Assembly: GCA_022750205.1 (NCBI GenBank)
Contig: JAKIWD010000007.1
Coordinates: 1 to 38,391, forward strand
Origin: Thermoplasmata archaeon
GTDB taxonomy: Archaea; Thermoplasmatota; Thermoplasmata; Lutacidiplasmatales; UBA184
Length of the DNA: 38,391 bases
Reading direction: 5' to 3'
Positions 2,417 to 4,989 of the stretch are shown here, piece by piece. The stretch's first letter is position 1, and each line of letters begins with the position of its first letter. The notes beneath the pieces are model-generated. The model was not told where the DNA came from, made no database searches, and was given only the letters and a program-made list of their open reading frames with translations. The position numbers were made by a program, and so were the translations under genes.

Positions 2417-2695
2417 GTGGGTGCCGCACCGTCGCCGCCAGGGTCGCCTCCCCGGATCCAGGGCATTCCCCCGGGGATGGTCGATGCGGTCCTGGCCATC
2501 CTCGCAAGCTCGGCCGGCCCCACGAAGCGGCGCAGCCTTCTCCAGGAGCTGGAGCGCCGGGGTCGTCGTATCTCCCTGGCGGGGCTCAACCGTGTGCTGC
2601 AGTACTGCGCGGAAGCGGGCCTCACGACCGATGGCCCGGACGGGGTTCGGCTCGCGCACCGGACGGTCCGAGGCCGCGCCGACGCAACGGAGTAA
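2417..2695 (+). CDS. Small winged-helix-like protein
   Basis: MVDAVLAILASSAGPTKRRSLLQELERRGRRISLAGLNRVLQYCAEAGLTTDGPDGVRLAHRT: wHTH-like pattern; sits upstream of the AIM24 cluster in the same orientation. Confidence 0.6.
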   Translation: MGAAPSPPGSPPRIQGIPPGMVDAVLAILASSAGPTKRRSLLQELERRGRRISLAGLNRVLQYCAEAGLTTDGPDGVRLAHRTVRGRADATE

Positions 2696-2728
2696 TACCC
2701 CCTCCGCCGCTATCCGGACAGGACGACC

Positions 2729-3376
2729 GTGGAACTCGAAACGCTCAAGGGAATGGTGCCCGCGGTCCTCGCGACGCTGGCGCCCCAGGAGTCGATCTAC
2801 TGCGAGCACGGCATCATGCTCTACAAGGACCCGAGCATCGGTGTCGGTCGCAAGACGATCCAGAGCGGCGGGCTCCTCTCGACCATGAAACGGACCGCCG
2901 TCGGAGGGGTCCCGTTCTTCATGGCCGAGTTCACCGGCCCCGGCAGCGTCGCCTTCTCCCGCGACGGGATCGGGGAGATCCGGGACATCGAGCTCGCCCC
3001 GAACGAGGTCCTCGACGTCGCCGAAGGGTCGCTGTTGTGCGCCGAGAACCGGATCCCCTACGACATGATCTATGTCAAGGGGACCAACCGGATCGGCCGG
3101 ATGATGGGGTTCTGGATGGACCGGCTCACCGGCCCGGGCAAGATCGCGCTCCACGGTTACGGGAACATCATCTCGATGACGCTCGCCGCGCACGAGCTCG
3201 TCACGTGCGACTACGGCGCGGTCCTGTTCAAGAGCGCGAGCGTCGAGGCCAGGGCCAAGAACCTGCCCTTTGGCAGCGGCTTGATCGGCAAGCTCGAGTC
3301 GTACGAGGTGCTCGAGCTCGTCGGCCCGGGCAAGGTCGCGCTCCAGAGCATCGACCCCAAGCAGCAACACAGTTAG
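2729..3376 (+). CDS. AIM24 family protein (copy 1)
   Basis: AIM24/TIGR00266-like pattern: FMAEFTGPGSVAFSRDGIGEIRDIEL...GFWMDRLTGPGKIALHGYGNIISMTL...LVGPGKVALQS. Confidence 0.85.
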   Translation: MELETLKGMVPAVLATLAPQESIYCEHGIMLYKDPSIGVGRKTIQSGGLLSTMKRTAVGGVPFFMAEFTGPGSVAFSRDGIGEIRDIELAPNEVLDVAEGSLLCAENRIPYDMIYVKGTNRIGRMMGFWMDRLTGPGKIALHGYGNIISMTLAAHELVTCDYGAVLFKSASVEARAKNLPFGSGLIGKLESYEVLELVGPGKVALQSIDPKQQHS

Positions 3377-3380
3377 GAGG
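3374..3380 (+). promoter_or_regulatory. Shine-Dalgarno for the internal operon gene
   Basis: taggagg overlapping the stop of AIM24 copy 1, about 9 nt before ATG 3389. Confidence 0.65.
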
Positions 3381-3388
3381 CCCAGGCA

Positions 3389-3580
3389 ATGTCACCAGTA
3401 CCCGAAGAGTTCGTCAAGAAGCGGACCGAGGTCACGATCAGCCGGGCGAGCCTCAAGGAGCTCAGCTGCAAGGGTTGTGGTGCGCGCATCGGGGCCCAGA
3501 ATATTTCCGGCGGATTTGCCAAGTGCGAGTACTGCGGGGGCGTCTACGCCCTCGACGCCCCGGGCGGAGCGCCCGGATAG
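3389..3580 (+). CDS. Small zinc-ribbon protein embedded between AIM24 genes
   Basis: ELSCKGCGARIGAQNISGGFAKCEYCGGVYALD: two CxxC knuckles; SD upstream. Confidence 0.8.
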   Translation: MSPVPEEFVKKRTEVTISRASLKELSCKGCGARIGAQNISGGFAKCEYCGGVYALDAPGGAPG

Positions 3581-3583
3581 ATC

Positions 3584-4330
3584 GTGAAGGCCGATACGGT
3601 CGGGGGCATCACCCCCGCGGTGCTGGTCCAACTGCGGCCGGGCGAGAAGATCCTCGCCGCGCACGAGATCATGCTCCACATGGACAACGGCGTCAAGATC
3701 GCGCGCAAGACGATGAAGCAGCTCGGCGTCAGCCGCGCCCACCTCATGGGGATGCACTCGCGCGGTGATGCCGAGGAGAACTACTTCTTCGCCGAGTTCG
3801 AAGGCCCGGGGAGCGTCACGTTCTCCCGCGACAAGGCCGGCGAGGTCCGCGTCATGGAGCTCGCTCCGGGGCAGACGGTGCGCTTGCGGGCCGGCCACCT
3901 GATCTGCTTTGACCCCACCGTCCGCTACTACCCGATGGTCCTCGCCCGGTGGGTCGTCCGGTCCGGCAACGACCAGACCACCGAGTACCTCTTCGTCGAC
4001 GAGCTGACCGGGCCGGGAACGATCGTGCTCCAATCGTACGGGAACATCCTGTCGTTCACGCTGCAACCCGGTGAATCCCTTCGCACCTCGACGGAGGGAC
4101 TGTTATTGGCCAGCCCGACGAACCCGGTCCAGGTCAACTGGCTCGCCGGCGGTCTCGGCACCGCCGTTCGGCAGCCACCCGCGTTGAGCGCCATGAACCT
4201 CCTCAGCCAGGGTCTCAATGTCAACCTCAACCTCGGCGGCGGGTCGGCGGGGGGCTCCTCGGGCGGCGGCCCGCGGCCGGTCCTCGATGTCTTCGGACCC
4301 GGGCTGGTCATGGTCCACAGCGGGGTCTGA
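3584..4330 (+). CDS. AIM24 family protein (copy 2, divergent, Gly/Ser-rich linker near C-terminus)
   Basis: FFAEFEGPGSVTFSRDKAGEVRVMELAPGQTV...DELTGPGTIVLQSYGNILSFTL...GGGSAGGSSGGGPRPVLDVFGPGLVMVHSGV; GTG start 3 nt after the zinc-ribbon stop. Confidence 0.8.
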   Translation: MKADTVGGITPAVLVQLRPGEKILAAHEIMLHMDNGVKIARKTMKQLGVSRAHLMGMHSRGDAEENYFFAEFEGPGSVTFSRDKAGEVRVMELAPGQTVRLRAGHLICFDPTVRYYPMVLARWVVRSGNDQTTEYLFVDELTGPGTIVLQSYGNILSFTLQPGESLRTSTEGLLLASPTNPVQVNWLAGGLGTAVRQPPALSAMNLLSQGLNVNLNLGGGSAGGSSGGGPRPVLDVFGPGLVMVHSGV

Positions 4331-4335
4331 ACGGG

Positions 4336-4989
4336 ATGCAGATCACCGTCCAGGGCGAGTTCGTCCCCGTCGCGCTCGTCCAGCTCCTCCCCTCCGAGGA
4401 GATCTATTGCGAAGGGGGGCTCATGGTCTACTGCGACCCGACGATCCGCGTCGGGATCCGGGCGATGACCCAGGGGGGGTTGGGCCAGGTCATGCGCCGC
4501 TCGCTCGTCGCCGGTATCCCGTTCTTTCAGCACGCCTACATGGGACCGGGGTACGTCGCCTTCAGTCGGTCCCGGCCGGGCGAGGTGCGCACGCTCGAGC
4601 TCCAACCCGGCCAGACCGTCGACATCGCCGAGCACTCGCTCCTGGTCGCCACGACGAGCGTCCAGTTCTCCACCTTCTACGTCCAAGGCACCGGCCGCAT
4701 CGGTCGGATGCTGGGATTCTGGATGGACCGGCTCACCGGCCCGGGGACCGTCGCCTACCACGGCTACGGCAACATCCTCGGATTCGACCTGAAACCCGGG
4801 GAGGCGATGGACATCGACCACGGTGCGCTGCTGCGCAAGGACGCGACGGTCAACCTCAAGGCGTTCAACCAGCCGCTCGGCGGCGGGATGGTCGGGCACG
4901 CGCTCAGCTTCGAAGCGCTCCACGTGGAGGGCCCCGGACGCCTCGAGATGCAGACCGTGGACCCGACCCGCGGCGCGAGCTCCAGCTGA
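4336..4989 (+). CDS. AIM24 family protein (copy 3)
   Basis: GPGYVAFSRSRPGEVRTLELQPGQTVDIAEHSLL...GFWMDRLTGPGTVAYHGYGNILGFDLKPGE; closely resembles copy 1. Confidence 0.85.
   Translation: MQITVQGEFVPVALVQLLPSEEIYCEGGLMVYCDPTIRVGIRAMTQGGLGQVMRRSLVAGIPFFQHAYMGPGYVAFSRSRPGEVRTLELQPGQTVDIAEHSLLVATTSVQFSTFYVQGTGRIGRMLGFWMDRLTGPGTVAYHGYGNILGFDLKPGEAMDIDHGALLRKDATVNLKAFNQPLGGGMVGHALSFEALHVEGPGRLEMQTVDPTRGASSS

Follow-up and report, generated by a model that had tools for sequence, protein, structure and literature searches.

How an archaeon comes to keep three related genes side by side, and what a very small protein encoded between them may be doing there, are the questions raised by a locus on contig JAKIWD010000007.1 of a Thermoplasmata archaeon. 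The stretch analysed, 38,391 nucleotides long and referred to here as the window, carries three genes of the AIM24 type. The AIM24 family spans all three domains of life, with two structures available since 2003-2005. Function of the mitochondrial kind would entail firm attachment to the membrane, residence in a large complex and an effect on respiratory complexes; we know of no molecular role assigned to the family. An earlier note made from the sequence alone had singled out these genes, a zinc ribbon of 63 residues lying between copies 1 and 2 and a wHTH gene just upstream as a candidate for an undescribed module.

The four open reading frames that we call A, Z, B and C are packed on one strand, and their coordinates are those originally reported (Table 1). 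Both the reading frames and the Pfam scores agree with three tandem AIM24-type genes interrupted by a zinc ribbon. The intergenic gaps, 12 nt between A and Z, 3 nt between Z and B and 5 nt between B and C, likewise fall in the range of 3-12 nt given before, and the Shine-Dalgarno (SD) sequence described at the first junction is the GGAGG ahead of Z. In the window A, Z and B are in frame; translational read-through or fusion of the three was ruled out, since their frames relative to one another vary at random from locus to locus.

Table 1. Coordinates of the AIM24 module and its upstream neighbour in the window
Feature	Position	Strand	Evidence and remarks
wHTH ORF	2417-2695	+	33 nt upstream of A
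TATA-like element of the module (GGAGTAATACC)	2690..2705	+	overlaps wHTH stop codon; AT-rich 6-mer in 23/23 loci
A: AIM24-family, 215 aa, GTG start	2729..3376	+	PF01987 123.9 bits; AlphaFold model resembles 1pg6 and 1yox; clade with A' copies
A-Z junction, Shine-Dalgarno GGAGG overlapping the A stop codon TAG	3377..3388	+	sequence; SD-like site in 27/27 A-Z junctions
Z: 63-aa zinc-ribbon protein, CxxC...CxxC, conserved N-terminal tail (PVPEEFVKKRTEVTISRASLK)	3389..3580	+	alignment; 37 loci; single intact copy per triplet-bearing genome
B: divergent AIM24-family, Gly/Ser-rich loop, 248 aa, GTG start	3584..4330	+	PF01987 82.4 bits; AIM24 fold in model; clade with B' copies
C: AIM24-family, 217 aa	4336..4989	+	PF01987 109.4 bits; clade with C' copies

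All three AIM24-type proteins align to the Pfam AIM24 profile (PF01987) over about positions 2-204 of its 205, with scores (Table 1) above the gathering cut-off of 25.7 bits. Against TIGR00266, for which the cut-off is 96.6 bits, A, B and C reach only 35.4, 29.1 and 36.9 bits. They are therefore AIM24-family proteins but not members of TIGR00266, and of the label proposed earlier the family name stands while the TIGR00266 assignment falls. The observation that copies 1 and 3 are alike and copy 2 is divergent with a Gly/Ser linker is borne out by the motif GFWMDRLTGPG...GYGNI common to A and C and by pairwise identities of 47 % for A-C versus 38 % for A-B and 35 % for B-C. Glycine-rich GPG motifs are kept in A, B and C.

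Structures were predicted with AlphaFold from artificial single read-through chains, A-Z and Z-B, which serve as a modelling device only (the frames differ in other species). The A domain is modelled at a pLDDT mostly above 90 with the ribbon of Z folded, and the Z-B chain gives an AIM24 fold for B with the Gly/Ser loop disordered. Foldseek returned E values of 4.5e-11 for A and 3.3e-10 for B with TM scores of 0.66-0.78 depending on the target, 1PG6 and 1YOX being the only significant matches of A; a sequence search of solved structures with A and B gave nothing useful. A, B and C have PF01987, and A and B also the modelled fold, in common with canonical AIM24 (TIGR00266, arCOG01907; 1PG6, 1YOX). 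They differ from it in scoring far below the TIGR00266 cut-off, in forming a separate clade, in travelling with Z and in numbering three per genome, whereas most other Thermoplasmata with canonical AIM24 have a single gene for it.

The arrangement extends well beyond the window. Searching about 85,000 species genomes with a profile of Z gave 37 loci, nearly all of them in metagenome-assembled genomes (MAGs) of Thermoplasmata or Thermoplasmatota that include Candidatus Lutacidiplasma and other acid-soil genomes, the exceptions being one genome labelled 'bacterium' and one labelled 'Euryarchaeota archaeon'. Per-gene HMMs resolve two layouts at these loci, A-Z-B-C (layout I) and Z-A'-B'-C' (layout II); one module is cut by a contig end (L100) and another consists of Z-B-C without A (L099). 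This neighbourhood search across archaeal genomes upholds the expectation that the triplet and its ribbon are conserved in relatives, and an arrangement that recurs in dozens of genomes is not due to chance.

About a third of the Lutacidiplasmatales-type family to which the window belongs (103 genomes) has the module, and AIM24 genes are nearly always present there in three copies or not at all: 63 genomes have none, 31 have exactly three, five have four to seven and four have one, with no intact subset of two found. Two of the four single-copy cases are at contig edges (G400, G462) and two are of a different, bacterial-like AIM24 type (G016, G465). The A-Z-B-C unit is also present in a relative with 33 % GC that belongs to the same order but to a different family. 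The rest of the class holds a single, sometimes double, canonical AIM24 gene scoring up to 260 bits, and no three-copy genome appears there among the genomes listed.

The lone genes of G016 (L067, 7775-8458) and G465 (G465:C48:10488-11081; L148/L181) group with bacterial AIM24 from Chloroflexota, Nostoc and Caballeronia and were probably acquired separately. Our bacterial survey comprised plasmids and one scan with Z; the plasmid AIM24 neighbourhoods examined contain neither the triplet nor Z, and A has no match in the phage collection. Within this survey, transport of the module by phages or plasmids was accordingly rejected. On a megaplasmid of Acidithiobacillus caldus (L147, 3920-4615) an AIM24 gene directly follows a CusA/CzcA heavy-metal efflux operon and precedes a cytochrome b gene, a context in which a link between AIM24 and metal stress is possible.

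In a maximum-likelihood tree (quick search, SH-aLRT support only), A, B and C form a clade separate from canonical AIM24. Within it the copies sort by position in the module and not by layout, A with A' (support 96), B with B' (100) and C with C' (97); the B and C groups include the low-GC relative, whose A is nearby with a placement that is not settled. Since each of these groups spans both layouts, the triplication predates the split between layouts I and II. The pairwise distances of A, B and C within layout I correlate with r=0.84-0.87, as would be consistent with their inheritance as a unit, and the module borders are fixed while the flanking genes differ between unrelated loci.

The upstream border bears on the wHTH gene, which the earlier note counted as part of the cluster and which, being on the same strand and close to A in the window, could be read as regulating the operon in cis. 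However, 54 of the 103 genomes of the family have homologues, and the strong ones, the window aside, are on contigs other than that of the module; many of the homologues are in genomes that lack the triplet and several in genomes with no AIM24 at all, and no module locus apart from the window has the gene in this place. Moreover, every one of the 23 non-redundant loci of layout I has an AT-rich, TATA-like hexamer (a 6-mer containing TA) 29-46 nt ahead of the A start, and the same definition fits 2.5 % of random windows in those loci. By its sequence the A-Z-B-C module has a private promoter, whose TATA box in the window overlaps the stop codon of the wHTH gene. With homologues placed elsewhere and a TATA box belonging to the module itself, the wHTH gene is a chance neighbour; we dropped it as a module member and consider its regulation of the operon in cis the least probable of the readings discussed here.

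Weak Pfam matches are all that the wHTH protein yields (HTH_12, 0.048), and its homologues, roughly 50-68 % identical, sit at other locations in many genomes of the family. The gene at positions 1383-2333, upstream of it, has a product that matches PF20440 (GvpD basic region 2) with 51 bits and is a degenerate relative of KaiC/RadA-like ATPases. Two genomes, G400 and G311, have ABC-transporter (permease) genes between A and Z-B-C; both halves are intact and each has a TATA-like element, the halves in G311 being on separate contigs so that the intervening distance there is taken from G400.

Z is bound to the triplet by its copy number. All 38 triplet-bearing genomes have one intact Z, and exactly one is present in 38 of the 41 AIM24-bearing genomes, the other three being the two genomes with a lone gene and one fragment at a contig edge; intact copies are found only together with an AIM24 module. 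The genome G271, 94 % complete and without a detected AIM24 gene, retains a Z pseudogene that has lost its first cysteine and acquired an early stop (L180, 6838-6942; G271:C20:31837-31941), a remnant that is the footprint of module loss. In the four genomes that carry both layouts the layout-II triplet never has an intact Z next to it, and in the other eight genomes with layout II it always does (Fisher p=0.002, of less weight than it appears because the common flanks of G010 and G460 leave the four Z-less triplets only partly independent). One of the second triplets, in G433, has a frameshifted Z beside it and an A' without a normal start codon, and may be decaying. Z thus decays where the triplet has been lost or where a second Z-bearing triplet is present. 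The single intact Z per genome and this pattern of decay tie Z to the triplets, two of which seem to be served by one copy.

Within Z, conservation is concentrated in the N-terminal tail. The tail (about residues 1-23; 22-23 residues) has a mean column identity of 91 % and a pN/pS of 0.19, versus 68 % and 0.52 for the ribbon. Two CxxC knuckles and a ribbon fold modelled at a pLDDT of 75-90 identify Z as a zinc ribbon with predicted zinc binding, and all four cysteines are invariant in 11 aligned rows and kept in 36. Its nearest relatives are the ribbons of membrane-anchored proteins from other Thermoplasmata (L044, L203, L204), which share LKCxxCG...CxYCGxxYxL and have two hydrophobic segments before the ribbon where Z has its conserved soluble tail instead. 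These small membrane proteins, with a C-terminal ribbon ending in LEEEPKW, are present in several Thermoplasmatota and are apparently unnamed; G037 and G039 contain no AIM24 gene.

The tail of Z has a pLDDT below 50 in both single-chain models, A-Z and Z-B, and is not seen to dock on A or B as monomers. No interface was observed in these two chains, which probe contacts between the proteins only weakly. The segment of Z that is conserved best thus looks unfolded on its own, which would fit a linear binding motif whose partner is absent from the models: the oligomer surface, C or another protein. The earlier suggestion that the zinc ribbon is a structural adaptor is, accordingly, unproven, given a variable ribbon beside a conserved tail, no docking on A or B and one Z that appears to suffice for two triplets.

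We lean, by a little, towards the A-Z-B-C operon encoding one obligate hetero-oligomeric AIM24 assembly with Z as a trans-acting partner. That three ancient paralogues have been kept together favours a hetero-oligomer, in which A, B and C would contact one another directly and fill the places taken by identical subunits in homo-oligomeric AIM24 proteins, B being the specialised and faster-changing subunit. Alternatively, A, B and C might form three separate homo-oligomers for different ligands or places, the operon serving co-expression only and Z belonging to one of them. Each of the three keeps the AIM24 fold or profile together with the GPG motifs, the bacterial plasmid genes examined stand alone, and a division of labour would also fit the co-retention of paralogues; yet near-complete all-or-none copy number and parallel divergence are unusual for independent proteins, and the missing subset of two speaks against them as well, which leaves this alternative unlikely. 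Somewhat less probable again is that Z, with a ribbon of, for example, the TFIIB or ribosomal-protein kind, regulates expression, either of the module itself or of its targets, and is not a partner in the complex. One copy per genome would be enough for two triplets, as for any regulator acting in trans, and the ribbon does resemble those of TFIIB, eL43/L37Ae and ubiquitin-fusion ribosomal proteins. However, these resemblances are weak and typical of any zinc ribbon (the window Z scores 14.5 bits against Zn_Ribbon_TF, below the cut-off of 29 bits, and the best E value among members is 2.6e-4), and Z shares a transcript with the very genes it would control and is preceded by an SD-like site at every one of 27 A-Z junctions, as for an abundant protein.

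A last reading would make the locus a stress island in which AIM24 acts alongside proteins of the TerD type, as it does in the tellurite-resistance operons of bacteria. PMC5822837, citing Anantharaman et al. 2012, places bacterial AIM24 genes next to terD and an AIM24 gene in group I ter operons, so that Pfam family and multi-gene context are shared with our module, whose patchy distribution would also suit an island. The operons described there contain an AIM24 gene and not a triplet with Z, however, and TerD is absent from all 23 module-bearing genomes, which rules out membership in a Ter system; with no PADLOC hit of note besides, the island is very improbable. PADLOC gave no support for a defence system either.

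For the hetero-oligomeric assembly, Z acting in trans would be a non-stoichiometric partner or a client-recruiting factor, its probably unfolded tail providing the binding peptide and its ribbon a small folded knob. Yeast Aim24 belongs to the same Pfam family and is an inner-membrane mitochondrial protein found in a complex of about 400 kDa (PMC3975624); it is a single gene, and the excerpted text of that paper reports no zinc-ribbon partner. By analogy with it, the aerobic acid-soil archaea that carry the module would probably use the assembly as a scaffold on the inside of their cell membrane. The wider proposition, to which we give slightly less than an even chance, is that a homo-oligomeric AIM24 scaffold became an obligate three-paralogue hetero-oligomer, an undescribed archaeal complex whose dedicated, tail-bearing cofactor Z serves two diverged forms of the assembly in one cell by acting in trans.

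We found no publication joining AIM24 with a zinc ribbon in a search that covered little subscription literature, and AIM24 goes unmentioned in the main text of the paper on Lutacidiplasmatales genomes. As a conserved unit for which no published description was found, the module lives up to its first designation as undescribed, and the triplet-plus-ribbon arrangement suggests that these uncultured acid-soil archaea possess a hitherto undescribed protein assembly of several parts. This minimal four-gene operon offers a clean, reconstitutable system for the architecture and binding partners of AIM24 assemblies, with the near-invariant tail of Z as a ready-made bait.
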